The notes under the pieces: model-generated
Database searches by the model: none
The model's input: the letters and a program-made list of their open reading frames with translations, nothing else
What the model was told of the DNA's origin: nothing
Shown: positions 5,037 through 30,244 of the stretch, one piece after another
How the letters are laid out: each line of letters begins with the position of its first letter
How positions within the stretch are numbered: the first letter of the stretch is position 1
Assembly (NCBI GenBank): GCA_020725865.1
Contig: DYEC01000013.1
Span: 1 to 64,000, forward strand
Origin: Anaerolinea sp.
Lineage (GTDB): Bacteria > Chloroflexota > Anaerolineae > Anaerolineales > Anaerolineaceae
Direction: 5' to 3'
Length of the DNA: 64,000 bases
Program-made: the position numbers and the translations under genes

Positions 5037-6185
5037 TTAAGCAGACTTCATTGCTCGTGGGAGATTGATGTTTTTGGATACTACTGTTTGAATCAGGCAA
5101 GCTTTTCTTAATACTGCTTGCCAGGCTAGTAGGAGAGTTTTAGATGATGCAAGCACAGAGCATATGGGGGCGCCTTGTGGAATATACTCACCAGAACGTG
5201 GTACATCGCGAATTCCTATCGCAGTCCAGTTTGAAGTATCGGGAGTGACCAAGCCTTTTTGAGCATATAAGATTCCTTTACCCCAATAAAGACCTTGAAA
5301 CTTCCATGACTCAAACGGTGGTAAATTGCCATTACAAGCTTGTACATGAAGCTCAAAAGCGTTTATGCCATATATGCGTTCATACAGTTCAGTTGATCCG
5401 CTATAACGAGGGTTGATTTCGATCAGGTAAAGTCGGTTTTTAAAGATCACGAAATCTGCACTGTTCAACCCGGAAAGCCCAAAGGTTTTTGTGAGAGTGT
5501 TCGCAGCATTTTTTATTGCTTTTTCAATAGCTGGGTCAAATAATGGAGCGGCATTGCCACACCACCAAAATGGTTCGGCGCCCAATTCTGACAGGCCACT
5601 GTATTGATAACTTAAACCAATCAAACATGCTTGCTGTTTATTTGACAGAAAAGTTGCCGAGGCTAGTTTTCCAGGTATGAAACGCTGTAGAATTTCGTCG
5701 TTTGATAAAGGTGTTACTCCATCCCAAAAGTGCACCCCCATCCCCCCACTACTTTTTAAGTTTTTTCGCAGCCATTTACCATGTTTTTTTGCTCTTGGTA
5801 AAACCTCTGGAAATATTGTTGGCGCAATACAAACACCAGAGTTAATTAGAGCTTTAGAAACTTGCCGTAAGTCACGCACGTCAGTGATAGTTTCTGGAGA
5901 ATTTCCCAGCAATTGTTTCCCTTTTGCTAACTCCCAAAGAGCGGGTTCGCACTCCACTCCTGCACCGTAAACGACAGCATCTGCTTCCTTTACCAGCTCC
6001 ATACCTGCGCGTGCTAAATTGGAGAGGCTTAATTCAACTCCAAAATCCCTCTGCAACGAATAAGCTTTTGCCCCTTCTGGTTGATCTCGATCAGCAAAAA
6101 AATCCAGGCTGATAACAGAATAACCAGCTGCTGCGGCTGAGGTGGCTATATCACGGGTTGTAATTCCAACCACAAATACTTTCAA
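5037..6185 (-). CDS. ATP-grasp ligase of the C1-cofactor cluster
   Basis: 382 residues. An N-terminal Rossmann-like half (MKVFVVGITTRDIATSAAAA; ADAVVYGAGVECEP) precedes an ATP-grasp core. SSGGMGVHFW is the nucleotide-binding glycine loop, and LYLIEINPRYSGSTELYER is the metal-binding acid/Asn motif. Last gene of the C1 operon, 14 bases after the second ATP-grasp gene. ATP-grasp proteins accompany bacterial methanofuran and H4MPT genes, where they ligate glutamates (for example MfnD-type tyramine-glutamate ligase). A role in making the MFR or H4MPT side chain is therefore the best guess, but the substrate cannot be read from sequence alone. Confidence 0.7.
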   Translation of the reverse strand: MKVFVVGITTRDIATSAAAAGYSVISLDFFADRDQPEGAKAYSLQRDFGVELSLSNLARAGMELVKEADAVVYGAGVECEPALWELAKGKQLLGNSPETITDVRDLRQVSKALINSGVCIAPTIFPEVLPRAKKHGKWLRKNLKSSGGMGVHFWDGVTPLSNDEILQRFIPGKLASATFLSNKQQACLIGLSYQYSGLSELGAEPFWWCGNAAPLFDPAIEKAIKNAANTLTKTFGLSGLNSADFVIFKNRLYLIEINPRYSGSTELYERIYGINAFELHVQACNGNLPPFESWKFQGLYWGKGILYAQKGLVTPDTSNWTAIGIRDVPRSGEYIPQGAPICSVLASSKTLLLAWQAVLRKACLIQTVVSKNINLPRAMKSA

Positions 6186-6199
6186 AGTGAAAGAGTACC

Positions 6200-7078
6200 T
6201 TAGAGTTGTTCTAATATATATTCTACGAAAGCCGCTGCTATATCCTTGTCACAAACAGCTTGTAAACCAACCCAGCTTGGCATACTATTGACTTCCACGA
6301 CATAAAGCGTTCCGTCCTCTCCTTGTAACAAGTCCACCCCGCAATAATCTGCTTCCAACACATTGGATGCCTGTAAACTTAAGTCGATCATTTCGGCAGA
6401 TGGTGAACATGGATATGCCTTGCCACCCTGAGCTAGGTTACACTTCCAGTTACTAGAATGTCGTTCCATAGCCCCAATTAGACAATTTCCAATAATCAAC
6501 AGACGATAATCACGGTTGTAATGAGGAATAAAACGCTGGAGATAGTACAAATAACCGCCTAATTCAAGTGCCTGAAAAGCGCGCAAGGCCATGTCTTCGT
6601 TACTTAAACGAACCATTCCCCTGCCGCGACTTCCAAATAAGGGTTTAAGAATGACATCGCCTCCTAATAATTCAAAGGCTTTCAATGCTTCCTCTGTATT
6701 CTCAGTTAGGATAGTTTCTGGCGTCGGCAAGCCAGCATTTGCAAGCAGAAAAGAGGTGTAATATTTGTCGACCATTTTTTCTATAGTTTTAGGCTTATTG
6801 ATAATGCACGTCCCACTATCCTCAAGCTGATGAAGTACATCCATACGATAAATAATCTGTTCTAGTGAACCACTTGGTATGTGACGCACTAATAGTAAAT
6901 CAAGTTCTGAGAGGTTAATCTCTTTACTCCAAACTGCACATTTCTCTTTTAAGTAAACACTAAAACGGGATGCATTGAAAAAGTGGGGTTTGACACCACG
7001 TTTTTCTAGAGCGATTGTTATTTGTTGGTTTGTCCAATCTTCATGGCTGCCAATAATGCCGATTTCTGGAGTATTCAT
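6200..7078 (-). CDS. RimK-like ATP-grasp ligase, probable H4MPT/MFR glutamate ligase (MptN-like)
   Basis: 292 residues with the RimK order: an N-terminal domain (EIGIIGSHEDWTNQQI), a linker with INKPKTIEKMVDKYYTSFLL, PTPETILT, then VILKPLFGSRGRGMVRL (ATP loop) and DLLQGEDGTLYVVEVNSMPSW (Mg-binding Glu/Asn). RimK relatives add glutamate to H4MPT or F420 in archaea, and homologues sit in bacterial H4MPT clusters. The start overlaps the mch stop by four bases (ATGA), giving translational coupling. Assignment to tetrahydromethanopterin:glutamate ligase is from family plus context; ribosomal-protein modification is the alternative. Confidence 0.75.
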   Translation of the reverse strand: MNTPEIGIIGSHEDWTNQQITIALEKRGVKPHFFNASRFSVYLKEKCAVWSKEINLSELDLLLVRHIPSGSLEQIIYRMDVLHQLEDSGTCIINKPKTIEKMVDKYYTSFLLANAGLPTPETILTENTEEALKAFELLGGDVILKPLFGSRGRGMVRLSNEDMALRAFQALELGGYLYYLQRFIPHYNRDYRLLIIGNCLIGAMERHSSNWKCNLAQGGKAYPCSPSAEMIDLSLQASNVLEADYCGVDLLQGEDGTLYVVEVNSMPSWVGLQAVCDKDIAAAFVEYILEQL

Positions 7079-8025
7079 CTTTCACTCTCTAATAGGGTAG
7101 AACTAAGACGTACTGAATCAATTTCTCCAGCATGAAAGATGGTACCTGTAGAAAAATTTGCTAATGTGACCTCAGCTGGAGCAAAAATATCGGGATCGAT
7201 ATGATAAAAATCCCCAGCTTTTTCGAACTGCTTAGAAAAGGGTATTCCATAATTTGGACTGGAAGAAGCAGGGATTTTTTCAACCAATTCACTTAGTTCT
7301 TGGTCCGAGACATCTAATATAGAAAGCCATACTTGACTACCAAAGGCCATCGCATCATTTGTCTTGCATAAAGAACGATAATTATTGCCAGTTGGGATAA
7401 CCACCGGACATTTTCCTACCCCGCTATGGACATGACGTAGGTCAAAACCTAATCTGTTCAACTTATGTAATGCAGTTTCAATAGACCGAGCAGCAATTTG
7501 TACACAAGATGCCAAACTAGATGTTTGTGCAATCAAAATACATAAGTTGATTGGCAAAACACCAATATTTTTAGCGAGGATTTGACATGTGGCATCGTCA
7601 GGTATGCCATCCGCTTCTAATACTAATACGGCTGTTTCAGAATCCTCTGCATACAAATTAAGTATTGGATCTTCTTTTTTAAGAAGAAGGCAAGCGGGAC
7701 CTGATCCAAGTGCGCGAAAGTTTGGCATGTTGATACGATAGTGAGCTGCCTGGCTGGCAAAGCAGCCCCAAGCTGGTCGGTCACAATATAACTCAACGTG
7801 TGGCCAAGATATTCCAACGATAGCGTTGAGTGTCAATCTGACCGAAGCCAGTCCGCCAGTGCACACTTCCGCCATCCGTAAACCAATGTCATATCCACCT
7901 GGGGCTTCTATACCTGCATCAATTATTAGAGTACCGCAAGGCATGGATAAAACTTTACAACCCAATGATTCGTCATTATTCACTATATCGTCAACAAGTT
8001 TCTTCGCCCGTTTGTTAAGCATCAT
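7075..8025 (-). CDS. mch: Methenyl-H4MPT cyclohydrolase
   Basis: 316 residues, the normal size for Mch. It converts 5,10-methenyl-H4MPT and water to N5-formyl-H4MPT. Recognised by family-wide similarity, including an N-terminal NKRAKKLVDDIV helix, GGYDIGLRMAEVCTGGLASV, PACLLLKKEDPI, GVLPINLCILIAQTSSLA and RSIETALHKL, followed by HSGVGKCPVVIP. Sits between fhcC (11-base overlap) and the RimK-like ligase (4-base overlap). In the C1 pathway it works immediately before the FhcD formyltransferase. No methylene-H4MPT dehydrogenase gene accompanies it here. Confidence 0.92.
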   Translation of the reverse strand: MMLNKRAKKLVDDIVNNDESLGCKVLSMPCGTLIIDAGIEAPGGYDIGLRMAEVCTGGLASVRLTLNAIVGISWPHVELYCDRPAWGCFASQAAHYRINMPNFRALGSGPACLLLKKEDPILNLYAEDSETAVLVLEADGIPDDATCQILAKNIGVLPINLCILIAQTSSLASCVQIAARSIETALHKLNRLGFDLRHVHSGVGKCPVVIPTGNNYRSLCKTNDAMAFGSQVWLSILDVSDQELSELVEKIPASSSPNYGIPFSKQFEKAGDFYHIDPDIFAPAEVTLANFSTGTIFHAGEIDSVRLSSTLLESER

Positions 8026-8827
8026 AGATTAATATTTCTCCTTTTGCAAATATGTTACTCTGCCCAACAAAGCGTTGAAAACTCTTCCCAAACCAGTGTT
8101 CAGGGACGGGAAAGTTTATATGCTGTAATTTTTTTAAGTACAGACGTAACCAAAGGAAATCGGAGAAACCCGAGAAACGGAATCCAGGTAATAGCGGCTT
8201 GCTTTTTTCAGCGACGAGGCTACCACGTCGCATCCGGATGCCAGCATAGTCTCCTAAGCAGCCAAAGACAAAAATTGATCCAGCTATCATATCAGCCCCT
8301 GCATAAGTTCCAGTATTTTCTCCAATCACAATCAGGCCGCGACGCATCTTACGTCCTGCTTCATCTCCTGCACTTCCGCGAATTAAAATAATCCCATCAT
8401 TCATCCCGTGTTGGCTGCCAAGTTGGTCGCCTCCAACTCTATCACCCGCGTTACCCAATATGCTAATCAAACCACCCTGCATAACGATACCCAAACAATG
8501 GCCGGCATTTCCCAATATGATCAATTCGCCACACTTCATATGAGCGCCAGCCCGGTTTCCAACGTCTCCCTCAACGAGGATTCTCCCACAATCCATACCA
8601 GAACCCACACCTTGTAAATTATTGGTATTACCACACAAGATTACTTCTTGTTGTTGGCAATCTTGAATTTTTATGTGAGATATTTCCCCAAGTTGATAAA
8701 TTTCATCATCACATACCACCTGCAAGCGTTGGAGTTCGGGTAATTCCATGGAACATAAACGATTTGGAATGATAAAACTCGCATCTAATTCGCGTCCAGT
8801 AAAAAAAAGTTCAAGGGTGAGGCGCAT
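8015..8827 (-). CDS. fhcC: Formyltransferase/hydrolase (formylmethanofuran) complex subunit C
   Basis: 270 residues. The middle is a right-handed beta-helix of repeated G-x-x-x-G turns: VEGDVGNRAGAHMKCGELII, LGNAGHCLGIVMQGG, RGSAGDEAGRKMRRG, GENTGTYAGADM and GCLGDYAGIRMRRGS. This is the signature of FwdC/FhcC and the glutamate-synthase alpha C-terminal fold. In the known Fhc complex this subunit is structural and holds A, B and D together. Three bases separate it from fhcD. The final ~60 residues are less conserved, as is normal for bacterial FhcC. Confidence 0.92.
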   Translation of the reverse strand: MRLTLELFFTGRELDASFIIPNRLCSMELPELQRLQVVCDDEIYQLGEISHIKIQDCQQQEVILCGNTNNLQGVGSGMDCGRILVEGDVGNRAGAHMKCGELIILGNAGHCLGIVMQGGLISILGNAGDRVGGDQLGSQHGMNDGIILIRGSAGDEAGRKMRRGLIVIGENTGTYAGADMIAGSIFVFGCLGDYAGIRMRRGSLVAEKSKPLLPGFRFSGFSDFLWLRLYLKKLQHINFPVPEHWFGKSFQRFVGQSNIFAKGEILIYDA

Positions 8828-8830
8828 AAC

Positions 8831-9721
8831 TTACGATTCTTTCAAAATTTGATGTAAATAAAACTGGTGAGAGCCTAACCGACCACCGTAATTACCCGCA
8901 GTTATCTGAATTACACCAGGGCGAGAGGCAGCTAGGATCCCTGCACGCATGGCAGCCTCAATTGCCGTTCTGTCCAAACCATCGATTACAATTTCATAAA
9001 CGGCATTGGTCTCGAGAGGAAGCATGGTTGCAGTTTGTCCTCTGATGGTTGGACAATAAGCGTCATTTGTTGAAGCAATAAGACCTTTATAGCGTGAACC
9101 GATTTTGCTCGGAGAGCGACAGATGCCCCCAGGAAATGGCGTGATAACACCGTTAATTTGTGAAATAGCCTTAATAGCTGCCTGGGCAGCTTGAATAGCT
9201 GCTCTTTGGTTTCTTGCAAATATGATCAAATTGCCGCCGCCGATCCCTTGAGTTACTCCGAAAGCTTCTTCAACAATAAACTCGCCGTCTGCTACAGGGA
9301 TGCGCCAATACCGTGCACCATTGATTCTTTTACTTGATTGGTATCCATCACCAAAATAACGAACTTTTCTCCCCACCAGAAATTTTTCAGGAGAGTTTAA
9401 CCCATTGTAGCAGGCAGAAGTTGGTGACGGTAATACACCTTGGCTAATACGTTTAAACAACTCTGTTTCCAGCTCTTCTTTCGAGCGCGCGAATAGTAAT
9501 ACAGCCCATCCAGGTCGCCCATCAGGCGTATCATGCGATGGTATTGGACATTCCAGTCCTGCTTCACAATTACAACCAATAACCGAAACAGCCAATCCGG
9601 CAGCTGTCGAGGCTGCAATTTCTGCCCATTTCCTGGTGTTTGCTGTAATGATTAATCGCGCAGCCCACATATCGAAAGCCTCTGCAAAAGTATTCACAAT
9701 GGTTACATTGTTTATCTGCAT
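8831..9721 (-). CDS. fhcD: Formylmethanofuran:H4MPT formyltransferase (Fhc subunit D)
   Basis: 296 residues, the standard length of Ftr/FhcD. Transfers the formyl group between H4MPT and methanofuran. Recognisable blocks: INNVTIVNTFAEAFDMWAAR at the N-terminus, VIGCNCEAGLECP, TPDGRPGWAVLLF, VGRKVRYFGDGYQSSKR, EEAFGVTQGIGGGNLIIFAR, FPGGICRSPSKIGSRYKG and TNDAYCPTI. The start overlaps the fhcA stop by 10 bases. Together with fhcA, fhcB and fhcC it would form the four-subunit Fhc complex known from methylotrophic Proteobacteria. Confidence 0.95.
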   Translation of the reverse strand: MQINNVTIVNTFAEAFDMWAARLIITANTRKWAEIAASTAAGLAVSVIGCNCEAGLECPIPSHDTPDGRPGWAVLLFARSKEELETELFKRISQGVLPSPTSACYNGLNSPEKFLVGRKVRYFGDGYQSSKRINGARYWRIPVADGEFIVEEAFGVTQGIGGGNLIIFARNQRAAIQAAQAAIKAISQINGVITPFPGGICRSPSKIGSRYKGLIASTNDAYCPTIRGQTATMLPLETNAVYEIVIDGLDRTAIEAAMRAGILAASRPGVIQITAGNYGGRLGSHQFYLHQILKES

Positions 9722-11313
9722 GAAACTACCTCAATATTAGCCAATTCTTTGCCACACATGGATAGCCCATATTGTACTTTTGGAATAGTGATATTCCTAA
9801 AGAAAGACTGTGTGGTTTGCTCCTGTACACATTCGTCTATTGGTGGACGAACAAGCAATATTTTTCCATGTGGTAAATTGTTTTCAATTTTTCCTTCTCG
9901 AACCGTCACTTGCCCATTTTTAACTACTAGAACTGGGTCGGAGAACATTTTTACCAGATCAATCTGTGGTTTGTAACAGCGCAAATCCGCCAAAGCACCA
10001 ATTCCTAAATGGCCGCGGTCCAAAAGGCCTAACGCGCGCGCTGGTCCCCAGCTTGTCATAGTGATAATTTCATCGAGCGTGTATTCTCTCTCTATTGCAT
10101 ACAAATCGCAATAAGACATAGCAGCCGTATGAACCTTTTTCAACATTTCGCGGCGCGCATCGCGTTGCATTAACCAAGCAAGGATCTGTGGGTAAGCGGT
10201 GAATGAACCACCATTAGGATAGTCAACGGTCAAGAATAACCGCAAAGGATCCGGAAAACGAAGGAGTAACTCTAAACCAGTTGCCCATTGAATCGCACTG
10301 ACCGGATCATCTGGAAAATATTGGGTGGGTAAGGCTGCCATGGCACCTTCACCTTCCCACAGCTGATAAGACCATGCCTTATTAGTTAGGTTGTGTAGCC
10401 ACTCGATTAACTGCACATCTGCTGACAGGTTAACTGTTGGTCCAAAAGTAACCTGACCAACATCAAAAGTTAATTCCGTGTGTGAAACCAATTGATCCAG
10501 AACACAGCCTACAGCCGAAGATAATAAACCGCTCTCCTTTTCATCATATAGGTAAAACTGAATGTGGCAAAGGTGAGCAGGTAATCGTTCAAGGGATTCG
10601 ATGGTTTGGAGAAAATTTCTCCAACTTCCCGGCTGGCCTAAATTTCCAACATGCAAATGGAGGGGGTGTGGCAAACCCAAATTAACAATGGCTGAAGCTA
10701 CGGATTTTATCAACTTACGTTGTGTAAGAGCGGGATATATTTCATCGTTTAAAGAGGATAGTGCTATTCGTTTCCGCCACAGGGTAGCGACCCCAGGATT
10801 GGTTAGTTTTATTGCATAAGCCCCACAAGTTACTAGTAGCCAGGCTAATATCTCTCTGAGCGTCTTTTGGTCACCATGAGAAGCCACTTCAAGAACCAAC
10901 GCATGATCTCCCGACAGAACGTAGGCTCCTCGGTCAACACCAACCATCTCTTGCAAGTCAACATGCGTTAGCCAAGAAGTTAGTGACGGCATGGCAGCAT
11001 CCATTAGCGTTGTGTAACCCATTCTCAGGTATGCAGTGGCAATTTCTGCTGTTGGTGGGATCCACCCGCTTGCCTCTCGCTCCTCACTCAAGCAAAAATG
11101 ACGCGCCATCGTTAATGGTTGGCCACCAAGATGAGCATGAATCTCGATTGCACCCGGTGCAATTATCCACCCTCTGGCATCAATTACGGTTAGATTTACC
11201 GGGTTTTGGGGAGGTGCAACAATTCTGTCACCTTCAATCCACAAATCGCACACCTTTCCTTTTAGCCCATTTGCTGGGTCATAAACTTGCCCACCTTTCA
11301 AAACAATGGTCAC
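9712..11313 (-). CDS. fhcA: Formylmethanofuran hydrolase subunit A (amidohydrolase)
   Basis: 533 residues of the urease/dihydroorotase-type amidohydrolase superfamily, FwdA/FhcA branch. GAIEIHAHLGG gives the first metal-binding HxH. AYAIKLTNPGVATLW contains the Lys that family members carboxylate to bridge two metals. LPHPLHLHVGNLG and LPAHLCHIQFYLY supply further His ligands, and FLTVDYPNGGSFTAYPQILAWL is the Asp region. It hydrolyses the formamide bond of formyl-MFR to formate and MFR. Starts with an ATGA overlap on fhcB. Metal-ligand roles are taken from the family. Confidence 0.93.
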   Translation of the reverse strand: MTIVLKGGQVYDPANGLKGKVCDLWIEGDRIVAPPQNPVNLTVIDARGWIIAPGAIEIHAHLGGQPLTMARHFCLSEEREASGWIPPTAEIATAYLRMGYTTLMDAAMPSLTSWLTHVDLQEMVGVDRGAYVLSGDHALVLEVASHGDQKTLREILAWLLVTCGAYAIKLTNPGVATLWRKRIALSSLNDEIYPALTQRKLIKSVASAIVNLGLPHPLHLHVGNLGQPGSWRNFLQTIESLERLPAHLCHIQFYLYDEKESGLLSSAVGCVLDQLVSHTELTFDVGQVTFGPTVNLSADVQLIEWLHNLTNKAWSYQLWEGEGAMAALPTQYFPDDPVSAIQWATGLELLLRFPDPLRLFLTVDYPNGGSFTAYPQILAWLMQRDARREMLKKVHTAAMSYCDLYAIEREYTLDEIITMTSWGPARALGLLDRGHLGIGALADLRCYKPQIDLVKMFSDPVLVVKNGQVTVREGKIENNLPHGKILLVRPPIDECVQEQTTQSFFRNITIPKVQYGLSMCGKELANIEVVSCR

Positions 11314-12488
11314 TTAAATTCCTCCATAATGTTTTGTAGAATGTATTCAGCTGAGGGATTTTGGCTGGCAATCAAGGGAGAGAGATGAACAGGCACATTA
11401 TCTGCCCGCAAGAAAATCCCTTTATCGTCAACTCCAGGCAATGCTATTGGTAACCAGATGCCAACATTCTCCATCAGTGGGACACTATTGATGACAATTG
11501 TTGGTGTTTCCCTCAAACGATTTAAAGCTTTGGTGGAGAGCCAACCAATATCTCCAACCCCGATTACCAGATCAGGGGCGTTTTGTTCAATCAAGTTTGT
11601 TGCTGAATACATTATCGGGGAAAATTTAACTTGACGTGGCGAGAAGTGAACAGCACATGGGTAACCACTTTCAGCGCTCAGTGCCTGACTGGCACCAGGC
11701 CAGTTACTGCCACCTGGAAGATAAAGAGCTTGCCAATTGCAACGATGAGCCACAGATATTTTATGTAACAATCCGAATAACTCGATGGTCAACATTCGTC
11801 CCCCAGACACCAAGCGTGAGCTGAAAACAATTGCTCCTCGAGAAACATCAAGCATCTTTCCTATGGTATGACACAATTCAATGACGGGCTCTGTAAAAAA
11901 GTTGCTGAAACAGAGACGGAGATGAACTAGGGTCTTGATAAGCGGTTCATTGGGGTCTTGATCAGTAATTTGGAATAACTCATGGCTATTTATTTCCAGT
12001 AATTCGGGTTGTTGAGTTCCAGGTCGCCAGATGCGATTAGTAAAACGTGGATAATCCTCCTCCAAATGGATGTCAAGCAATATAAGAATCTCGGCGTTTG
12101 CTCTCAGTTCACCTAAAGTACAAGTTGTTAAACCCACCTCAACCGCAGTCCAGGGTAAAGCGCAACCCCCCAATGACGCGGGCGAATCAGCCCAGGCATT
12201 TATTTGGCGTGCTAAAGCAGCTGCCAATCGCTGAGCAGTGTAGGAAATTCCACCCCCTATGATTACCAGGGGGTGATGAGCTGTTTTAATAAGCTGAATC
12301 GTCCTGGTCCAGTCTTCTTTCCAATTCTCCGACGATTTGTCCTTTTTGTTAGACGCTAACGAAGAAAGCGCGTTTGAAAAACCATTTATTCCCTTGGGGC
12401 ATATTGGAAACAGACTGGTGAGATTTTGTTCCTCCAGGCTTATTTCAAGGTCATCACAATGCAAACTACAGAATGGACATGCGAACAT
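11310..12488 (-). CDS. fhcB: Formyl-MFR complex subunit B (molybdopterin-oxidoreductase-like, apparently without catalytic Cys)
   Basis: About 392 residues from ATG 12486-12488; the frame extends upstream to a TTG at 12551, and neither start has a good SD. The N-terminal CPFCSLHCDDLEI matches FwdB/FhcB. In methanogen FmdB/FwdB a SVCHGP-type block supplies the Cys that binds Mo or W. The corresponding stretch here, SPASLGGCALPWTAVEVGL before TCTLGELR, has no CHGP. Bacterial FhcB is known to be a non-redox scaffold that binds a glutamate-rich MFR cofactor, and this sequence fits that. The alignment was made by eye. First C1 gene after the ADP-ribosylglycohydrolase-family gene. Confidence 0.88.
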   Translation of the reverse strand: MFACPFCSLHCDDLEISLEEQNLTSLFPICPKGINGFSNALSSLASNKKDKSSENWKEDWTRTIQLIKTAHHPLVIIGGGISYTAQRLAAALARQINAWADSPASLGGCALPWTAVEVGLTTCTLGELRANAEILILLDIHLEEDYPRFTNRIWRPGTQQPELLEINSHELFQITDQDPNEPLIKTLVHLRLCFSNFFTEPVIELCHTIGKMLDVSRGAIVFSSRLVSGGRMLTIELFGLLHKISVAHRCNWQALYLPGGSNWPGASQALSAESGYPCAVHFSPRQVKFSPIMYSATNLIEQNAPDLVIGVGDIGWLSTKALNRLRETPTIVINSVPLMENVGIWLPIALPGVDDKGIFLRADNVPVHLSPLIASQNPSAEYILQNIMEEFK

Positions 12489-12572
12489 ATGGGTCAAGAA
12501 CTTGCCGTACACTGATACCAGACATCCATAATGGATGCAAGGAAAAACCAATGTTATAGAGTGGTTCCAATT

Positions 12573-13589: not shown

Positions 13590-13593
13590 TGGC

Positions 13594-21862: not shown

Positions 21863-21874
21863 AATAAACCAGCC

Positions 21875-22828
21875 TTATTGTTGATAAGATGAATGATGGG
21901 TAATAAATTCTTGCAATTCCGATGAGTTCGGCAAGCCATTACGGGCGCCGAAATGTGCGATCTTAATCGCGGCGGTAGCGCAACCTATTTTCGCTGCTTC
22001 ATACCAAGAGTATCCCGTCAGGTAACCGTGCATAAGACCAGCGCTAAAAGCATCCCCAGCCCCGGTTGTATCACAGATACGCTCCGGACGCCAAGCAGGT
22101 ACTTTAGAGTATTGACCCTTTACCATTAAAGCCACTCCCTCACTCCCCCGAGTTTCAATAATGATCTGCGGTCCATGCTGTTTCAAATTTGACAATCTCT
22201 GAGTTAATGGAATGTCTGGTATGAGCATTTCGGCTTCTCTTTGGCTGAGTATCAACACGTCGACAATGGATAACAAGGGCTTCAGCGCGGAAATGCCCAA
22301 TGAAACCAATAGGCCGCCTGGGGAGAAAATAACTGGAACACCACCCTGACGAGCCAGGGCAGCAGCTGCTAGAGCGACGTCAATATAGGTATCACCAATA
22401 TATAAGAGATGACAGTTTTGCAACATCATCACATTCAATTCTGACGCCTTTTCAAGAGGTGCAACACCGCCTAAGGCAAAGATAACCCGATTGCCTTTTT
22501 CGTCAATGGCAATGAAACAGCTGGCTGTACGCCTATGGGGATCTATGATCACTGCATCTGTATTTACACCTTCTTCCACGAATGACTTTAGCAAAAAGCT
22601 TCCCTCTTCGTCTGCACCAACCTTGCCGGCGAATGCAACGCGATGCCCTAGACGTGCCAGTCCCACAGCAACATTACCACCACTTCCACCTGGATAACGC
22701 TGACAGCTCTTTGCCAGCACAATCTCATCTGGCTGTGGTAGACGGCTGACAAGTACAGTAATATCTATAGCCGCTGCCCCTAATATGACTACATGAACAC
22801 TATCCCAAGTTTTCTTTATCTGTTTCAA
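21875..22828 (-). CDS. PfkB-family carbohydrate kinase
   Basis: 317 residues. VVILGAAAIDITV and YPGGSGGNVAVGLARLG near the N-terminus are the PfkB signature 1; ICDTTGAGDAFSAGLMHGYL is signature 2 with catalytic Asp. Ribokinase-like proteins phosphorylate sugars or nucleosides. Overlaps the S-component gene by four bases. The presence of two kinases of different families (FGGY and PfkB) suggests two different phosphorylation steps or two substrates. Resembles ribokinase/nucleoside kinase more than 6-phosphofructokinase. Confidence 0.9.
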   Translation of the reverse strand: MKQIKKTWDSVHVVILGAAAIDITVLVSRLPQPDEIVLAKSCQRYPGGSGGNVAVGLARLGHRVAFAGKVGADEEGSFLLKSFVEEGVNTDAVIIDPHRRTASCFIAIDEKGNRVIFALGGVAPLEKASELNVMMLQNCHLLYIGDTYIDVALAAAALARQGGVPVIFSPGGLLVSLGISALKPLLSIVDVLILSQREAEMLIPDIPLTQRLSNLKQHGPQIIIETRGSEGVALMVKGQYSKVPAWRPERICDTTGAGDAFSAGLMHGYLTGYSWYEAAKIGCATAAIKIAHFGARNGLPNSSELQEFITHHSSYQQ

Positions 22829-23559
22829 TCCTCCTCATCTTCGAATTCTTCTTCCTCTTCATAAATCATGGGTCCAACCGGGATCGAAATTTTTGGCAAA
22901 CCGATCAAAAGGGGTGTACCAACGACCGCAGCTGCCAGACTGAAGAGAATGCGTTCAATTGGCGCTATGGCTAAAACTGAAAACCAGATTGCTGGAGGTA
23001 AAGCAAACATCACCAGTGCCCATAAGTTGCCAATGGCCTGGGTGACGACAATACCGGCTGCTGAGGCACAAAAGAAACCAGCAAACATTTTGGCACGATT
23101 GCTTGAGGTTAGCCAATCTTTGCCCCAGACCCAACCTATCGTTATGGCTATAATGCCGACCAGATACAGCAAGGGTGTTGCCCATGCCTGACGACCTAGT
23201 GGGAATAGGTACCAGACCACCCCTAAAACAAGGATAAGAAGGAGAGGCCAGTGCCATTTACGTTGCATAGCCAAGCCGGCTGCTGCTGCTCCAAACACAG
23301 AGATGAGAAATTGCAAAGGACCAAACAACACTGTATGAGGGGCGATTAATTGGCCAATGAAGGAACCTATTCCAGCCGCGATTGCACCTGCCCAAGGCCC
23401 GAAAAGGATGCCAGCAATTGGCACCAGAGAGGCACCAATGTTTAACGTGGCACCCGTGCCAATGATTGGGAAAGCCGGTAACAAGGTTGCAACAGCGATG
23501 AGAGCAGCCCAGACGGCAATGATGGCTGGATGAGTGGTAACACGTTTCTTGTTTTTCAT
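22825..23559 (-). CDS. ECF transporter S component, module 2, with acidic C-terminal tail
   Basis: 244 residues with multiple membrane segments. FPIIGTGATLNIGASLVPIA and GILFGPWAGAIAAGIGSFIG plus HTVLFGPLQFLISVFGAAAA fit the S-component pattern and parallel the module 1 S protein. The last 14 residues (YEEEEEFEDEED) are almost entirely acidic. The matching T and A components lie upstream at 26278-28869, separated by the flavoprotein gene. The assignment depends on this context. Confidence 0.7.
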   Translation of the reverse strand: MKNKKRVTTHPAIIAVWAALIAVATLLPAFPIIGTGATLNIGASLVPIAGILFGPWAGAIAAGIGSFIGQLIAPHTVLFGPLQFLISVFGAAAAGLAMQRKWHWPLLLILVLGVVWYLFPLGRQAWATPLLYLVGIIAITIGWVWGKDWLTSSNRAKMFAGFFCASAAGIVVTQAIGNLWALVMFALPPAIWFSVLAIAPIERILFSLAAAVVGTPLLIGLPKISIPVGPMIYEEEEEFEDEED

Positions 23560-23604
23560 AGTTTATTCTCCTTGTTTATGAATAGCATTGCCCCAGGTTG
23601 TGCC

Positions 23605-26247
23605 TTACATAATATAAGGGCGTTGTTTTACTCGTATAAGGCGATTTGCTAAATTAGTAATATCCATTACCTCTAGGATCGTCATTTCTTTCCGGTGAGG
23701 GTCTGTTTGACCTCGTAATTGCATAAACTGAGTCAGACAAGCGGGACAGGCGGTTAACAAAATTCCCGCGCCTGTGTTCTGGGCCTCAGACCAGCGCTCA
23801 AGGCCGGCACTTTCAGCTAATTTTGGATAGTCTAAACGAACGAAAGCGCCTGAACCGCAACAGAAGGCGTCTCCGTGGTTTCTGGGCATTTCTACTAAAC
23901 GCATACCAGGAATGGCGTTGATTATTGTGCGTGGTGCGTCATAAATTTGCAGGTGGCGGCCTAATACGCAAGGATCATGATAAGTAACAACACTACCTGC
24001 AGACAACACATTGAATTCAACCTGTCCACTATTTATCTTCTCGGCTAAAAGCTCAACAAGGTGTAGTGTCTCAAAGGGTAATGGTTCTCCAAGTAGCTTA
24101 GGGGCATCGCATTTAAATGACTCATAGCAAGCTGGGCAGGAGAATACAATACGTTCTACCCCCAACTGTTTGTAATTCTCAATGTTATGGTGTAACAGCT
24201 CAGCCGCTTCGTTTTGCTTGCCAGTAACCATCAATGGATGTCCGCAACACCATTCTTTGGAAGCGATTGTATAATCGAGTTCAAGTTTGTTAAGTAGTTC
24301 AATTGCTTCACGGGCCATCGAGCGACGCACATACGAAGGTGTGCAACCCGCGAAGAATGCTGTGCGGCTCTTTCTGTCAAAATGGGTTTGGTCTCCCAAC
24401 CACTGAAAGCGGATAGCGTCTGGTTTATCATAAGGATTGTGATTTCTATAGGTTGCCTCAGCCGCCGTCCTTAACCCTTTTGGGATCAATCCGCGAGAAG
24501 CCATGTCTTGGCGCAAAGCAAGATATATACCATTCACCCTCACATTTTTTAGACAATCTTCACTGCATGCTCCGCATAGTGTGCAACTATAAATACGATC
24601 AGCTACTTTTTCGTCGTAGTCAATCTCACCTTCAAGTATGGCGCGAGCCACTGTAATTCTGCCGCGAGCGCTATAGGTTTCAAATGTACCATGTAGGTAA
24701 GAAGGACATTTATGATAATTACCAACCCAACTCACATCCAGACAGAATCCACAGCGAAGACATTGGTATAGCGATTCGGAAATCTCATTCAATCCTTCTC
24801 CGCGCCCGCTAACTTGCTCCAGAACAGGATTTTGCTTTGTCTTTCCGCCTAACATTAACACGCCGGGATTCAAGATGTGGTTGGGGTCTAAAGCGTCTTT
24901 TAAAGACTGCATTAAACGATAAGTTGAGCCAAGTTTATTCATGATATATGGAGCAATTCCTGCCACGATGCCGCCGGGTGACATCCAGCGATTGAAAAGT
25001 AATTCAGAAATATCCTCGCGAATCTTAAAGCCATAACGGTGCGATACTGGATTACTTTCTGGGTAAAGCGTATCTACCCATAAAAATGCGGCATTACGGG
25101 AGAAATATACATCTAATCCTTTTAATAGAATGCCGTGTTGTTGCCATTCCGATTGGTGTTCACGAATGTATTGTTCAAGTAAAGGAATAGCATCCTTTAG
25201 CGACTGAGTAGGAATAAAACCAGCTACCTCAGGGCAATAATAAGGACGACTACCATAGTAGACTTCGGGAGGCGCATTTCTTAACCACGAGTACATGTGG
25301 CCCGACCAATAACGCTGGGTGGCGTTAGCGTCTTGGGCGCGACCCTTGAAACTCTCGCATATAGCTTTACAGGTTTGATAACGTCTGCTTGCATTAAGCG
25401 TATTGTCACGAATAATAATATGTAAGAAATAATTGCCACTGATATTAGCTGGTTTGGGTCCTCCGAATAAACCGACAAGAAATGTAGCTGCTTGTTGGCT
25501 TTGAATGGCTGAAACAGCATCTACAATTTCACCTAACCTGTCAAATGCGTAAAACAAGAACTGTTCAGATTCTGGAATACGTCTTATCCGCAAAGTAGCG
25601 CGAGTGATGATTCCCAGTGTCCCACATGATCCAATGAAAAGCCCTGCCAAGTCAGGACCATTAGCACCGCGCTCAATGGGTAAATTACCGGCCGCATTAT
25701 TAGCAGCAGAGCCAGTTCGGATGAGTGTGCCATCGGGTAAAACAACTTCCAGAGAAACGACGTGTTCGCCAGTGATCCCATACTCAGTCATGGCGTGCGG
25801 AACAGCATTATATGCGATCGTTCCACCAACTGACGAAGAGAAAAGCCCGCCACCACCAGGGGCCGTTAATTCCCAGCCAAGTTTTTTTAGCTCACTATCT
25901 AACGCGTGCCAAATCACACCACACTCAGCAGTAACTATCTGGTTTTCGAGGTCGATTTCAAATTGATTGAGCAGATCAAGCGCAATAACAATAGAGCTTT
26001 CTGGGACTCCAGAATCAACAAAAGTAGTTGCCCGTCCCCACAAGAAAAGAGGTCGCTTAACCTGGTTCGCTAGTTTGACGATTTCAACCAGTTGGTTAAC
26101 ATTCTGAGGCCTAACCACATATGCTGGAGTACCACCCAGTCCGGGTCCGCAATCCCGGCGATAACATAGTCGATCAACCAGTTCGCTTGTTACTCGTCCC
26201 TCACCACAGATGGCCTGCAATTGATTTAATAAATTATCCATGCCCAT
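23605..26247 (-). CDS. FAD/Fe-S oxidoreductase, GlcD-GlcF-type fusion
   Basis: 880 residues. N-terminal FAD_binding_4 domain: YVVRPQNVNQLVEIVKLANQ, FSSSVGGTIAYNAVPHAMTEY, GITGEHVVSLEVVLPDG, followed by the FAD-oxidase C domain ending in LKDALDPNHILNPGVLMLGG. Then two 4Fe-4S motifs (CLRCGFCLDVSW...C and CTLCGACSEDC), then two CCG domains (CCGHPL; CCGSGAF) as in GlcF/HdrB. It should oxidise a 2-hydroxy acid such as glycolate or lactate and pass electrons on. In glycolate oxidase these parts are separate subunits. Context suggests it oxidises the hydroxyacid product of the aldolase branch. Confidence 0.88.
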   Translation of the reverse strand: MGMDNLLNQLQAICGEGRVTSELVDRLCYRRDCGPGLGGTPAYVVRPQNVNQLVEIVKLANQVKRPLFLWGRATTFVDSGVPESSIVIALDLLNQFEIDLENQIVTAECGVIWHALDSELKKLGWELTAPGGGGLFSSSVGGTIAYNAVPHAMTEYGITGEHVVSLEVVLPDGTLIRTGSAANNAAGNLPIERGANGPDLAGLFIGSCGTLGIITRATLRIRRIPESEQFLFYAFDRLGEIVDAVSAIQSQQAATFLVGLFGGPKPANISGNYFLHIIIRDNTLNASRRYQTCKAICESFKGRAQDANATQRYWSGHMYSWLRNAPPEVYYGSRPYYCPEVAGFIPTQSLKDAIPLLEQYIREHQSEWQQHGILLKGLDVYFSRNAAFLWVDTLYPESNPVSHRYGFKIREDISELLFNRWMSPGGIVAGIAPYIMNKLGSTYRLMQSLKDALDPNHILNPGVLMLGGKTKQNPVLEQVSGRGEGLNEISESLYQCLRCGFCLDVSWVGNYHKCPSYLHGTFETYSARGRITVARAILEGEIDYDEKVADRIYSCTLCGACSEDCLKNVRVNGIYLALRQDMASRGLIPKGLRTAAEATYRNHNPYDKPDAIRFQWLGDQTHFDRKSRTAFFAGCTPSYVRRSMAREAIELLNKLELDYTIASKEWCCGHPLMVTGKQNEAAELLHHNIENYKQLGVERIVFSCPACYESFKCDAPKLLGEPLPFETLHLVELLAEKINSGQVEFNVLSAGSVVTYHDPCVLGRHLQIYDAPRTIINAIPGMRLVEMPRNHGDAFCCGSGAFVRLDYPKLAESAGLERWSEAQNTGAGILLTACPACLTQFMQLRGQTDPHRKEMTILEVMDITNLANRLIRVKQRPYIM

Positions 26248-26277
26248 TAACCTCCAAAGAGTATATTGTTGTCCTGG

Positions 26278-28038
26278 TTAAGAGTTAATCTTCCCATTCA
26301 ATCGAGTAATAATTGCCCGTGCCATCTGGTCCACTGAAAGCGGGGTGCGCGGCAACCCAAGACTTTCTGGTAAGTACTGTCCCAACTCGGTAATTTGGGG
26401 TGGAATAATGTGCGCTTGCCTAACAATCTCTATTTGGGAAAAGATTTCTTCCGTGCTCCCATCGAGTAAGATTTGCCCGCCCCTCATGACGATAACACGG
26501 CGGGCATATTCTGCAACCAATGCCATATGATGGGTCACAAAGACAACAGTATGGCCTGTTTGGTTAAGTGCACGAGCAATCTGCATGATCTGGTGACAGC
26601 CTTTATAATCTTGTCCGGTAGTGGGTTCATCCAGAACAATGATTTGTGGGTCAAGTGCTAAGGCACTTGCAATAACCACTTTAGCCCGTTCACCTTTCGA
26701 CAACGCTGGTGGAAATTCGTTGCGCAACTCTTGCAAATCTACAATAGAGAGCACTTCTTCAACACGCTCACGAACCTCATTTTCGCTCAAACCGAGGTTT
26801 CTTGGCCCAAAAGCAATTTCTTCTTCAACTGTTTCCGCAAAAAGCTGTTGGTCAGGATTTTGAAGAACAAACCCAACATGACGAGCCATGTCAGCAACAG
26901 CCGCTCGGGATGTGTTTAACCCCGCTACAGTCACACGACCTGAGGTTGGTCGTAATAATCCAAGAAGGTTTTTTAAGACCGTGGTTTTACCTGAACCGTT
27001 TTGGCCGATGATAGCCATGAATTCACCCCTCGGTACAGAAAAACTCACGTTCATTACGGCATGGACGTTGTGCGGCTGATATATATAGTTTAAATTGTCA
27101 ACTTGAATGATTGGGGGTTCATTTGGTCGAAAAGATGAGAGTGGAGTGACAACAATGTTATCGCCAAGACTGTTGTGTGAGGATTTGTCGCTTAAGATCT
27201 CAACAATACCCCGGGCTGCCTCTTCAATGGTTATTGGGAAGACCGGCAAGGGATAACCAGCTTCTTTTAATTGGACGCCAAGTTGAGACACTTGAGGAGC
27301 ACGTATCATATGATGACTGAAAAGTTCGGCATCAGCAAAAACTTGGCGAGGTGTACCTTCAGCAATTAATCGGCCTTTGTCCAGTACTATAACACGGTCG
27401 GCTAGCTTGGCTATTTCTTCGCTCTGGTCGGTAGTCATTACGATGGTCATACCATATTTTTCGTTCAACTCTTTAACTACAGAGAGTACTTCAACAACAC
27501 CTAAAGGATCAACTTGTGAAGTGGCTTCATCAAGGATTAGAATCTCTGGTTTCATTGCAAGTGCTGCAGCAATTGCCAGTCGTTGTTTTTGTCCACCAGA
27601 TAGAGCTGACGGCATGCGGTCTTCGTAACCAGTTAGGCGCACTACGTCCAATGACCATTGAATACGCTGATATATTTCCTCAGGATCAACATTCAGATTT
27701 TCCGGACCAAAAGCCACTTCACTACGCACAGATGTGGTAAAAAGCTGTGTTTCGGGATCGTCAAGGACGATACCCACTTTTGTGGATAACTGAGCAATAT
27801 TGGCTTCCCGCGTATTAAGCCCAGCGATCTTCACTTTTCCCTTGAGTTGCCCACCAATTGAGTGAGGAATGATTCCATTGAGAATTCGACACAGGGTGCT
27901 TTTACCCGCTCCATTTTCGCCCATAATAGCCAGGAATTCACCTGGTTCAACAGTCAGGTTAATCCCACGAATAACAGTGTTTTTACTACGTGGATATCGA
28001 TAGGAGACATCAATTAGTTGGATGGCCGGTGTAGTCAT
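26278..28038 (-). CDS. ECF transporter fused ATPase (A-A'), module 2
   Basis: 586 residues with two complete ABC ATPase domains in tandem. First: Walker A GENGAGKST, signature LSGGQKQRLAIAAALAM, Walker B ILILDEATSQVDP. Second (from about residue 305): GQNGSGKTT, FVLQNPDQQLFAETVEEEIA, LSKGERAKVVIASALAL, IIVLDEPTTGQD, FVTHHMALV. Module 1 has the same pair as separate genes, so this is a fusion of EcfA and EcfA'. Located 25 bases after the T gene and 31 bases before the flavoprotein gene. Confidence 0.92.
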   Translation of the reverse strand: MTTPAIQLIDVSYRYPRSKNTVIRGINLTVEPGEFLAIMGENGAGKSTLCRILNGIIPHSIGGQLKGKVKIAGLNTREANIAQLSTKVGIVLDDPETQLFTTSVRSEVAFGPENLNVDPEEIYQRIQWSLDVVRLTGYEDRMPSALSGGQKQRLAIAAALAMKPEILILDEATSQVDPLGVVEVLSVVKELNEKYGMTIVMTTDQSEEIAKLADRVIVLDKGRLIAEGTPRQVFADAELFSHHMIRAPQVSQLGVQLKEAGYPLPVFPITIEEAARGIVEILSDKSSHNSLGDNIVVTPLSSFRPNEPPIIQVDNLNYIYQPHNVHAVMNVSFSVPRGEFMAIIGQNGSGKTTVLKNLLGLLRPTSGRVTVAGLNTSRAAVADMARHVGFVLQNPDQQLFAETVEEEIAFGPRNLGLSENEVRERVEEVLSIVDLQELRNEFPPALSKGERAKVVIASALALDPQIIVLDEPTTGQDYKGCHQIMQIARALNQTGHTVVFVTHHMALVAEYARRVIVMRGGQILLDGSTEEIFSQIEIVRQAHIIPPQITELGQYLPESLGLPRTPLSVDQMARAIITRLNGKINS

Positions 28039-28062
28039 TTTCCTTATCTACTCTCTATGTCT

Positions 28063-28869
28063 TTATAGCATTGCAGCCAGGACAATCACTCCAATCGAAA
28101 GGATTGTCGTTACCGCTATGAAAACCCAATCAAACCACTTTAGATTGATATCCTCAATATATGTACGTGTTTTCATGGCCCCAAAGGCACGCGAATCCAT
28201 AGCTACTGCCATGGACTGGGCACGCCGCATGGCACCAATTACTAACGGTGTGACGAGCGCGGGGTAAGAACGCAGCTTTTCCCAAAATTTACCTTTTTCA
28301 AAGGTTCGCATGGCGCGCAACTTTTGAGCATCTACAATAACACCGATTTCTCCCTGTAAAATCGGTACCATGTTGAGAGCTGCTGTAGTGGTATAAGCAA
28401 AACGGTATGGCAAACCAATACGTACCAGTCCTAAGGCAAGAAGATGTACTGGGGTGGTCATACTAACTAGTGGAAGGAGTATAACCATTGCCAACAGTCG
28501 GAACATGAGTAAAACGGCGAACAAGATACCCTGGAGGGTGATTCTACCTATCCCGCCGATCAGCGGTACAAAACGAGGGATGAGAGGATATATTAGAATG
28601 GTTTCTCCTGGGTATAAAATTGCCTGGACAATAAATAAAAAGATAAAAACAGGCAAAAGTGCTTTCAAAAAGCCCCAAACAATCGAAATTGGTAAATTGG
28701 CTCGCCACCACAGAAATACCATAACTACCAATATAAAGAATGACAAATATAAGTTCTGGATAGCAAATATCGCCACACTCACAAAAATCAAGAAAACAAG
28801 CTTGGCACGTGGATCCAGACGATGAAAAAAAGTTTGACCGGGAAAATACTGAACAAGTGAACCACTCAT
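28063..28869 (-). CDS. ECF transporter T component, module 2
   Basis: 268 residues. QTFFHRLDPRAKLVFLIFVS at the start is the EcfT hallmark. Several membrane segments follow, then KLRAMRTFEKGKFWEKLRSY and LVTPLVIGAMRRAQSMAVAMDSRAFGAM, the coupling-helix/Ala-Arg region. Lies 35 bases after the amidohydrolase and 25 bases before the fused ATPase. Works with the S protein at 22825. Confidence 0.9.
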   Translation of the reverse strand: MSGSLVQYFPGQTFFHRLDPRAKLVFLIFVSVAIFAIQNLYLSFFILVVMVFLWWRANLPISIVWGFLKALLPVFIFLFIVQAILYPGETILIYPLIPRFVPLIGGIGRITLQGILFAVLLMFRLLAMVILLPLVSMTTPVHLLALGLVRIGLPYRFAYTTTAALNMVPILQGEIGVIVDAQKLRAMRTFEKGKFWEKLRSYPALVTPLVIGAMRRAQSMAVAMDSRAFGAMKTRTYIEDINLKWFDWVFIAVTTILSIGVIVLAAML

Positions 28870-28903
28870 CGCAAAAATTCCCTTTCAATGTTGTTTTGGC
28901 TAG

Positions 28904-30244
28904 CTAATATCTAAATAAAGAGCGCTGCTTGTATAGACGCGATTCCACCAATTCAGCCTCTTCAATGATTGCTTTTTCGTTGACCCGGGTGATATGGCGG
29001 TTATGCATGACCAACTCGCCATTGATGATTGTGTCGCGTACATCACTGGATTTTCCACAAAAAATGAGGGTATTTAAAAGGCAATCTGGGTGTAAAGGGC
29101 GTAAATGAACTCCACCGAGGTCCACTACAATTAAATCGGCTAATCGGCCAGGGTCAATTTGTCCAGCGTCAACACGGCAAATTTTCGCTGGTTCAATGGT
29201 GGCCATTCGGAAAACATCTTGAGCACTGAGTGCTGCTGGGTCAGCAGTAGAGACACGTGCCAGAAAAGCCCCACATCGCATTTCTTCCCACATATCCAGC
29301 AGATCATTCGAACCACAACCATCAGTGGCGATACTTATAGGAATTCCAGCTTCGACCATGGCTTTAGCTGGCATAATGCCATCCGCTAGTTTCATGTTAC
29401 TTTTGGGGCAATGTACCACTCTAACACCAGTATCAGCCAATATTTTGATATCGGTATTACTAACGTGCACACAATGAACAGCACTCAAGCGTGGGCTCAA
29501 TAAGCCCAAACGATGCAGGCGTTCAACGGGGGTCATACCATGCTCCAATAGGGAATCTTCAACTTCGCCAGAAGTTTCAGCAATATGAATTTGAATATTA
29601 AGCTTCATATCTTCTGCAAGATCGCGCACCCATGAGAGCATTCCATCATCGCATAAAAAAGGGGTTGAAGGAGCAAGGCATACCTGTAATAATCCAGTAG
29701 GATCATGCCACTCCTGGATGAACTCAACTACCTTCTGACGACTTTTTAATTCTTCATTGCGAAGCTCCACCGGTACCCAAGTGTTTGTAAGGGTATATGC
29801 AGCCACTCCTCGTAGGCCAAGGTCCTGCCATGCAGTGAGTGAAGAACCGTCTGTTATATCCATATTGACGCAACAAGTTGTTCCGCCTCGAATCATCTCT
29901 ATACCAGCCATTGCTGTCCAGAGGTAGGCAGGACGATTATTCCCAGTTTTCGAGGCTTCTAGAATGGCAGCCACTGTGGGAAACAGCAAGTCATTGCACC
30001 ATGGAACTAATGTCAGGTCTTTTGATACGCCTTTTACAAAATTCTGGTAGAGATGAGTATGTGTATTGATTAGACCCGGCATGACGGCACAACCGCGGGC
30101 ATTGATAACCTTTGTATCGGATCGCGGCGTGAGAGTAGTACCAATTTGTGTAATTTTGTTGCCCTCAATAAGAAGATCACAGTCAGTTTCAATAGTTTCA
30201 GAATTTCTGATGAGAAAGGAAATATTTTGGATAAGAATATTCAT
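28904..30244 (-). CDS. Amidohydrolase of the TRZ/ATZ (SsnA/MtaD-like) deaminase family
   Basis: 446 residues. The metal site is complete: PGLINTHTHLYQNF (HxH), LNIQIHIAETSGE (His), SAVHCVHVSN (His) and ISIATDGCGSNDLLDM (Asp). The C-terminal GRLADLIVVDLGG is typical. Family members deaminate guanine-, adenosine- or triazine-like heterocycles or open rings. It is the first gene of the apparent 25-kb transcription unit, behind a good promoter. No clear SD precedes its ATG. In this operon a nitrogen heterocycle or nucleoside-like substrate would fit also the ribosylglycohydrolase and PfkB kinase; that is inference. Confidence 0.88.
   Translation of the reverse strand: MNILIQNISFLIRNSETIETDCDLLIEGNKITQIGTTLTPRSDTKVINARGCAVMPGLINTHTHLYQNFVKGVSKDLTLVPWCNDLLFPTVAAILEASKTGNNRPAYLWTAMAGIEMIRGGTTCCVNMDITDGSSLTAWQDLGLRGVAAYTLTNTWVPVELRNEELKSRQKVVEFIQEWHDPTGLLQVCLAPSTPFLCDDGMLSWVRDLAEDMKLNIQIHIAETSGEVEDSLLEHGMTPVERLHRLGLLSPRLSAVHCVHVSNTDIKILADTGVRVVHCPKSNMKLADGIMPAKAMVEAGIPISIATDGCGSNDLLDMWEEMRCGAFLARVSTADPAALSAQDVFRMATIEPAKICRVDAGQIDPGRLADLIVVDLGGVHLRPLHPDCLLNTLIFCGKSSDVRDTIINGELVMHNRHITRVNEKAIIEEAELVESRLYKQRSLFRY

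Follow-up and report, generated by a model that had tools for sequence, protein, structure and literature searches.

Why would an Anaerolinea genome keep the genes of a formyl-transferring one-carbon (C1) pathway directly behind a set of transport, kinase, and aldolase genes? The question is raised by contig DYEC01000013.1 (assembly GCA_020725865.1), of which the first 64,000 nucleotides, hereafter the window (G000:C11:1-64000), contain 23 open reading frames (ORFs) in series from 30244 to 5037, all on the minus strand. A sequence-only reading of this DNA had described a consecutive series with short gaps and many overlaps. The ORF check bore this out: all 23 ORFs lie at the coordinates given beforehand, distances between neighboring genes range from -55 to +54 bases, and overlaps occur at 9 of the 22 junctions. 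The upstream part is a catabolic half with energy-coupling factor (ECF) transporter, kinase, aldolase, and dehydrogenase genes, and the downstream part a C1 half with Fhc, Mch, and ATP-grasp ligase genes. The coupling of these known parts is real and conserved, and the arrangement is more than chance, as the same order recurs in four other genera; a functional coupling of the two halves is very probably conserved with it.

Relatives were located via Mch (G004, G018, G009) and via FhcA (G561, G517). Five carriers possess both halves, namely the window genome (G000), G004, G018, G561, and G009, spanning five genera and two families of Anaerolineales; G517, from the genus of G561, shows the junction only, with the end of a sugar-binding protein (recognized by eye) followed by FhcB to MyfA. 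One strand and the same order were read in G004 (L025, L024), G018 (L237, L027, L026), G561 (L211, L212), and G009 (L235, L236, L023), the contig ends of G009 cutting the amidohydrolase and falling inside FhcD. Identity to the window proteins ranges from 24% (FhcB) to 80% (EcfS1). Common to all five carriers are the amidohydrolase, EcfT, EcfAA', EcfS1, PfkB, FGGY, SorC, the Oxidored_molyb protein, and the ADP-ribosylglycohydrolase, together with FhcB, FhcA, FhcD, FhcC, Mch, and MyfB; the four fhc genes are adjacent in the carriers. In concatenated alignments of the five, pairwise identities were 53-65% for seven upstream proteins and 47-57% for five C1 proteins, the identities of the two halves correlating at r = 0.90 over 10 non-independent pairs, and the upstream and C1 trees both paired G018 with G009 at 100/100. 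The carriers also vary. Four of them (G004, G018, G009, G561) have four extra genes between the ADP-ribosylglycohydrolase and FhcB, which the window is without: a TIM barrel, two permeases, and a binding protein, with AP_endonuc_2, BPD_transp_1 (first permease), and SBP_bac matches in G561; we label this transporter CUT1-type. The G004 unit is without the second ECF module, and MyfA was not found there within the 28 kb read past MyfB. DeoC and alcohol dehydrogenase (ADH) of this kind are not on the G018 contig, nor is GlcDF on the G009 contig; the rest of neither genome was searched for them.

The identities of the window genes were consistent with Pfam and NCBIfam, and the Fhc genes stand in the order B-A-D-C. 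From its upstream end, the unit comprises:

28904-30244, minus strand: amidohydrolase of the deaminase type (Amidohydro_1, E = 3.9e-66; best NCBIfam score 342.5 bits against a cut-off of 609)
28063-28869, minus strand: EcfT1, ECF transmembrane component (CbiQ, E = 6.3e-34)
26278-28038, minus strand: fused EcfA-EcfA' ATPase (ABC_tran, two stretches)
23605-26247, minus strand: GlcD-GlcF type FAD/Fe-S dehydrogenase fusion (FAD_binding_4, Fer4_8, CCG)
22825-23559, minus strand: EcfS1, substrate-binding component (ECF-ribofla_trS, E = 2e-9)
21875-22828, minus strand: PfkB-family (ribokinase-like) kinase (PfkB, E = 3.4e-56)
20840-21862, minus strand: Zn-dependent alcohol/polyol dehydrogenase (ADH_N, ADH_zinc_N)
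20009-20785, minus strand: DeoC/LacD (DhnA-type) aldolase (DeoC, E = 1.3e-33)
18486-20012, minus strand: FGGY carbohydrate kinase (FGGY_N/C; XylB model 296 bits against a cut-off of 380)
17537-18499, minus strand: SorC-family regulator (Sugar-bind, E = 3.4e-72)
16979-17494, minus strand: small Oxidored_molyb-domain protein (PF00174, 26.6 bits against a cut-off of 24)
16033-16962, minus strand: EcfA of the second ECF module (ABC_tran)
15192-16043, minus strand: EcfA' of the second ECF module (ABC_tran)
14398-15246, minus strand: EcfT2 (CbiQ, E = 5.4e-24)
13594-14367, minus strand: EcfS2, probable second S component (no family match in Pfam or NCBIfam)
12573-13589, minus strand: ADP-ribosylglycohydrolase-family enzyme, probable ribosyl hydrolase (PF03747, E = 2.6e-62)
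11310-12551, minus strand: FhcB, diverged, without the molybdenum/tungsten (Mo/W) cysteine motif (one_C_dehyd_B, 160.7 bits against a cut-off of 327.8)
9712-11313, minus strand: FhcA, hydrolase subunit (one_C_dehyd_A, 441.6 bits, above the cut-off of 392.8)
8831-9721, minus strand: FhcD, formyltransferase (Ftr; one_C_fhcD, 401.8 bits, above the cut-off of 292.6)
8015-8827, minus strand: FhcC (one_C_dehyd_C, 201.6 bits, above the cut-off of 130.7)
7075-8025, minus strand: Mch, methenyl-pterin cyclohydrolase (one_C_mch, 291 bits, above the cut-off of 228.8)
6200-7078, minus strand: RimK/MptN-like ATP-grasp ligase, probable MyfB (MptN_Meth, 268 bits, below the cut-off of 350)
5037-6185, minus strand: ATP-grasp_3 ligase, MfnD-like, probable MyfA (PF02655; MfnD_Meth, E = 1.9e-8, far below the cut-off)

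The sequence-only reading had joined the catabolic and C1 halves on the strength of one genome; gene neighborhoods in relatives now bring to five the carriers that join them in the same order. Since the two halves are not conserved only apart, the coupling survives, though each half also occurs alone. Among 79 loci retrieved with the ADP-ribosylglycohydrolase, the C1 half was present at two (L101 and L114, taken as carriers G018 and G004), and an archaeal locus (L158) has its own Mch 8 kb away. No C1 gene was found within 10 kb downstream in L102 (Anaerolineales UBA2200), or in the flanks examined of four Bacillota loci (L103, L105, L108, L177) and of several loci from Thermotogae and Spirochaetes that have DeoC, SorC, and ADH. 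Six Chloroflexota contigs (L099, L100, L104, L107, L110, L140) were not counted, as they end within the ADP-ribosylglycohydrolase or 0.5-4.7 kb past it. Conversely, the C1 clusters of G046, G087, G113, G151, G311, G583, and G590 show no upstream half in the parts that were read. These C1-only relatives have an FhcD 53-56% identical and homologous FhcC, Mch, and MyfB, and all seven genomes possess MtdB. A molybdopterin-binding subunit lies beside the C1 cluster of G590, and similar short proteins were seen by eye in G046, G087, and G113. FhcB of the other Anaerolineae at loci L214, L218, L219, L220, and L222 keeps the Mo/W cysteine motif; such a complex may therefore work as a redox formylmethanofuran dehydrogenase and not as a hydrolase.

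What would the C1 half of the carriers produce? The SVCHGP motif of FhcB, which aligns with the W-ligand region of FwdB, is lost in all five carriers aligned (G009 was not among them) and in the G472 genome described below, and is present in all five C1-only relatives aligned. The four N-terminal iron-sulfur-type cysteines of FhcB are kept in all of these sequences. FhcA retains the HxH, Lys, His, and Asp motifs of its metal site in the five carriers aligned, and Mch its R-x-x-E pair. A molybdopterin-dinucleotide-binding subunit of the FwdD type is not among the 23 unit proteins (Pfam scan). Because FhcB is without the Mo/W motif and the unit without this subunit, the predicted output is formate, released by hydrolysis, which we consider likely from these sequence features; a Mo/W formylmethanofuran dehydrogenase (Fmd/Fwd) was rejected for the carriers on the FhcB motifs. 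The proposal in the sequence-only reading that C1 units leave as formate through a tetrahydromethanopterin (H4MPT) route is thus supported as far as Fhc goes, which looks formate-releasing and non-redox; its other part, that a one-carbon fragment from cleavage is passed to H4MPT, is taken up below. The window genome has a single FTR match, the FhcD of the unit, and the C1 half is therefore not a dedicated extra copy accompanying a canonical module elsewhere; FTR matches occur in 22 of the 396 genomes of the class, the window genome included. At position 112, Mch has Cys in all six carriers and an invariant Arg in the eight other cluster Mch proteins, the only such switched column, with Arg or Lys in other homologues of the wider alignment. 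This change may point to an altered carrier; literature on the role of this Arg, on Mch together with purine degradation, and on purine pathways offered nothing that settles the mechanism.

The entry into this branch differs from the known one. In methylotrophs, Fhc and Mch form a branch of formaldehyde oxidation with Fae and MtdB upstream. One article gives the branch this formaldehyde role and describes MyfA and MyfB as glutamate ligases of methylofuran synthesis (PMC8141765). By family and position, the two ATP-grasp proteins of the unit probably correspond to MyfB and MyfA; a MyfB-like ligase is kept in all five carriers and a MyfA-like one in most, although the window proteins fall short of the NCBIfam cut-offs for MptN and MfnD. 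Fae, RFAP synthase, and the furan synthase MfnB were not found over cut-off in the four carriers tested (G000, G004, G009, G018), G000 and G009 giving partial RFAP synthase matches of 19-20 bits against 113.5. The MtdB model, also run on G561 and G517, found no MtdB or MtdA/B N-domain in any of the six carriers. MtdB is present in 14 of the 21 FTR-positive genomes that the class has besides that of the window. Formaldehyde or methylene entry thus lacks its known enzymes. A 444-aa protein of the G087 C1 cluster, presumably an H4MPT-biosynthesis protein although no family match named it, was not found in the six carriers, is also absent from G590 and G472, and is present in 6 of the 18 genomes searched (G087 is one of the 6). 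The lack of a match is no proof that the carriers or their synthesis are lacking, since G046, G087, G098, G114, G165, and G407 have MtdB and FTR, yet no match over cut-off to RFAP synthase or MfnB.

These absences bear on the source of the C1 unit, which the sequence-only reading had placed in the cleavage of the imported compound. That part of the proposal fared poorly: besides the missing Fae, RFAP synthase, MfnB, and MtdB, the G018 unit keeps its C1 half without DeoC or ADH on the contig, and the G009 unit is without GlcDF, which argues against the aldolase as a necessary C1 source. Formaldehyde released by the aldolase is probably not how the C1 unit reaches the pathway. Another genome points elsewhere. 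In G472 (L215, L216), an amidohydrolase 40% identical to that of the window occurs together with an ECF module and with MyfA-FhcBADC-Mch-MyfB. Within the ECF module, EcfAA' and EcfT were assigned by similarity and the S component by eye; the sugar genes of the unit were not found in the 40 kb searched there, nor MtdB in the genome. SelD, XdhC, YqeB, luciferase-like monooxygenase (LLM) proteins, and molybdenum-hydroxylase subunits were recognized by eye in the surroundings. Mch-only paralogues (24-35% identical) adjoin BMP nucleoside-type transporters, deaminase-type amidohydrolases, or xanthine-dehydrogenase-type genes, in part as judged by eye. Given the G472 locus, these neighbors, and the absence of DeoC, ADH, and GlcDF from single units, an N-heterocycle is a better candidate than the aldolase for the origin of the C1 unit.

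We tentatively favor an explanation in which an Anaerolineales catabolic unit is joined to a complete hydrolytic formyl-transfer module that C1 units enter from a deaminated N-heterocycle. A heterocycle bearing a sugar or polyol group would be imported by one or both ECF transporters; the amidohydrolase would deaminate it, and the ADP-ribosylglycohydrolase-family enzyme would remove a ribosyl-type group. The sugar part would be phosphorylated by PfkB and FGGY, and oxidized and cleaved where those genes exist, while a ring carbon would pass at the formimino, methenyl, or formyl level to an H4MPT-type pterin. Mch would then open the methenyl form, FhcD would move the formyl group to methylofuran, and FhcAB(C) would hydrolyze it to formate. 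That the C1 unit derives from the heterocycle ring is possible, though rather doubtful. Substrate and C1 donor are thus what we infer, gene content and order, the FhcB motif loss, and the missing matches being observations. Several points weigh against this explanation. No recognizable formimino- or formyl-transferase onto a pterin and no recognizable ring-opening enzyme is encoded among the unit genes, and FTCD_N, present in three of the four carriers searched, is also present in all six other genomes (9 of 10 in total), on contigs other than that of the unit. The kinases, the aldolase, and the CUT1-type transporter of the four other carriers suit a sugar as well as a nucleoside substrate. 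The C1 carriers themselves are left unexplained, as the known H4MPT and methylofuran synthesis genes were not detected. Beyond the G018-G009 pair, the half-trees disagree, with weak support (65 and 44), and the relatives are draft assemblies with a completeness of 87-97% (87-99% over all carriers) and 10% contamination in G004.

Formaldehyde, or a methyl or hydroxymethyl group, cut from the substrate as the sequence-only reading implies, could instead react spontaneously with the pterin, with an unrecognized dehydrogenase (for instance ADH, GlcDF, or a flavin enzyme of the LLM type) in place of MtdB. Oxidoreductases are indeed encoded in the unit, an LLM-type protein nearest to Mer models adjoins the C1 half in G561 (with a similar one by eye in G517), and MtdB accompanies the C1-only clusters of relatives; we nevertheless regard this route as unlikely in view of the missing Fae and MtdB and of the G018 and G009 contigs that are without ADH and DeoC or without GlcDF. 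Cofactor salvage would account for other features of the unit. ECF transporters typically import vitamins, and those of the unit could take up C1 carriers or their precursors (methanopterin- or methanofuran-like compounds from methanogens or methylotrophs), which the amidohydrolase, ribosyl hydrolase, and kinase would remodel and to which the ATP-grasp ligases would add glutamates. Salvage would fit the retention of MyfB-like and mostly of MyfA-like ligases in carriers without matches to RFAP synthase, MfnB, or the 444-aa protein, the weak folate-family match of EcfS1 (24.7 bits against an NCBIfam cut-off of 60), the recurrence of ECF genes beside C1 genes in G472, and the Arg-to-Cys change in Mch. 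The kinases, aldolase, GlcDF, and CUT1-type transporter look catabolic, however, and the same synthesis matches are missing from the six MtdB- and FTR-positive genomes, as is the 444-aa protein from G590; salvage seems improbable.

A related proposal, that the C1 module works on imported or non-canonical carriers finished by the MyfA/MyfB-like ligases, with the Cys-112 Mch using an altered pterin, is fairly improbable; if true, it would be the first known case of bacteria salvaging archaeal-type C1 cofactors that they have lost the ability to make. Least expected is co-expression without shared carbon flow, in which the C1 half would detoxify or dispose of C1 units from general metabolism after its capture by a catabolic operon that is well induced and that spread in one piece. 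Each half does exist alone, and synteny is evidence of linkage, not of flux; yet the block persists across five genera and two families despite divergence and single-gene losses, and the ECF-amidohydrolase-Fhc link recurs in G472, which makes this decidedly unlikely.

Apart from the Fhc clusters, Mch paralogues were found at L003:9487-10443 (G000:C10), L028, L029, L030, L031, and L033-L037. The three tested, from G000, G004, and G007, score above the one_C_mch cut-off. No FTR match was found in G007, G023, G026, and G034, which carry such paralogues, and the substrate of the Mch-like proteins may therefore differ from H4MPT. In G561 and G517 (L212:13335-15438, L213:7964-10072), two further genes come after the unit, one N-acetylornithine-carbamoyltransferase-like and one for the LLM-type oxidoreductase nearest to Mer (the G517 copies by eye), and the same carbamoyltransferase type occurs near the Mch paralogue of G000:C10. 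An identity as YgeW was not supported for the G561 protein, which scores best as N-acetylornithine carbamoyltransferase-like, below all cut-offs.

Comparison with known systems places the parts of the unit but not the whole. Fhc and Mch of Methylorubrum extorquens share FhcA, B, C, D, Mch, and probably the MyfA/MyfB-type ligases, as well as loss of the Mo/W motif from FhcB. The carriers differ in being without Fae, RFAP synthase, and MfnB over cut-off (4/4) and without MtdB (6/6), in having C1 genes embedded in an ECF/SorC catabolic unit, and in the four iron-sulfur-type cysteines of FhcB and Cys 112 of Mch. The C1-only Anaerolineae clusters share FhcD, FhcC, Mch, and MyfB; they differ in going with MtdB, in an FhcB with SVCHGP (in the five aligned), and in the lack of an ECF/SorC half over the stretches that were read. 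In the lsr autoinducer-2 operon, SorC/LsrR, FGGY/LsrK, and DhnA/LsrF-type proteins also stand side by side, whereas no Lsr-type transporter or LsrG is among the 23 proteins and our unit is attached to a C1 module; an autoinducer-2 system was rejected, the LsrK, LsrR, and LsrF models giving 156, 169, and 156 bits against cut-offs of 528, 486, and 297. Bacillota, Thermotogae, and Spirochaetes sets (L103, L105, L108, L129, L163, L177) combine the ADP-ribosylglycohydrolase, DeoC/LacD, and Zn-ADH with FGGY or SorC, but without C1 genes in the flanks examined. XdhD, YgfK, and YgeX of reductive urate degradation are not among the 23 unit proteins in Pfam and NCBIfam scans, which did not extend to the rest of the genome. 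No paper describing the combined unit was found among those listed, judged by titles and abstract openings in a search that left subscription journals mostly outside its coverage. An Fhc/Mch branch is thus conserved across genera behind an operon for a complex substrate, in bacteria where its entry enzymes and the known carrier-synthesis genes were not found. This would mean either a new way of loading C1 units onto the pathway or a new source of its cofactors, both of which are testable.

The NCBIfam models nearest to the amidohydrolase belong to the N-ethylammeline chlorohydrolase/5'-deoxyadenosine deaminase group, with scores below cut-offs. The nearest solved structures are MJ0400, then LsrF, for the aldolase and MJ1187 and DraG for the ADP-ribosylglycohydrolase. 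The first ECF module is complete (EcfA, EcfA', EcfT, and an S component). A structure model of EcfS1 resembles S components (TMt up to 0.70), with no match at E <= 0.001, so the fold search recovered the general S-component fold without naming a substrate. EcfS2 is a probable second S component by weak similarity, its homologues in relatives being 25-30% similar to those of EcfS1. The small Oxidored_molyb protein has a lipoprotein-like N-terminus (signal judged by eye), and a 630-aa ORF at L102:9774-11666 contains four tandem stretches resembling it.

The unit may form one operon, probably under the control of its own SorC regulator. The one strong promoter from which the sequence-only reading had the unit begin did not stand out: the best promoter-like site just upstream (30333-30305, ATGACA-17-TATTAT, 10/12) is equaled in score by sites inside the unit at 25836, 24293, and 10570. 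Promoter-like sites on both strands numbered 42 in 12000-31500 (29.8 +/- 5.2 in shuffles) and 14 in 4600-18000 (23.0 +/- 5.3 in shuffles). Terminator-like sites showed no excess over shuffles in these intervals (22 vs 20.3 and 15 vs 13.2, respectively). Riboswitch control was set aside, the sole Rfam match in the window being a tRNA at 31154-31227. Another minus-strand cluster adjoins the unit at 37193-49828, with a BMP-type ABC transporter, an FGGY kinase, an AP_endonuc_2 TIM barrel, a GH31 glycosidase, and a URO-D family protein, and at 2950-4944 a protein kinase domain is fused to an FGE-sulfatase-type domain.

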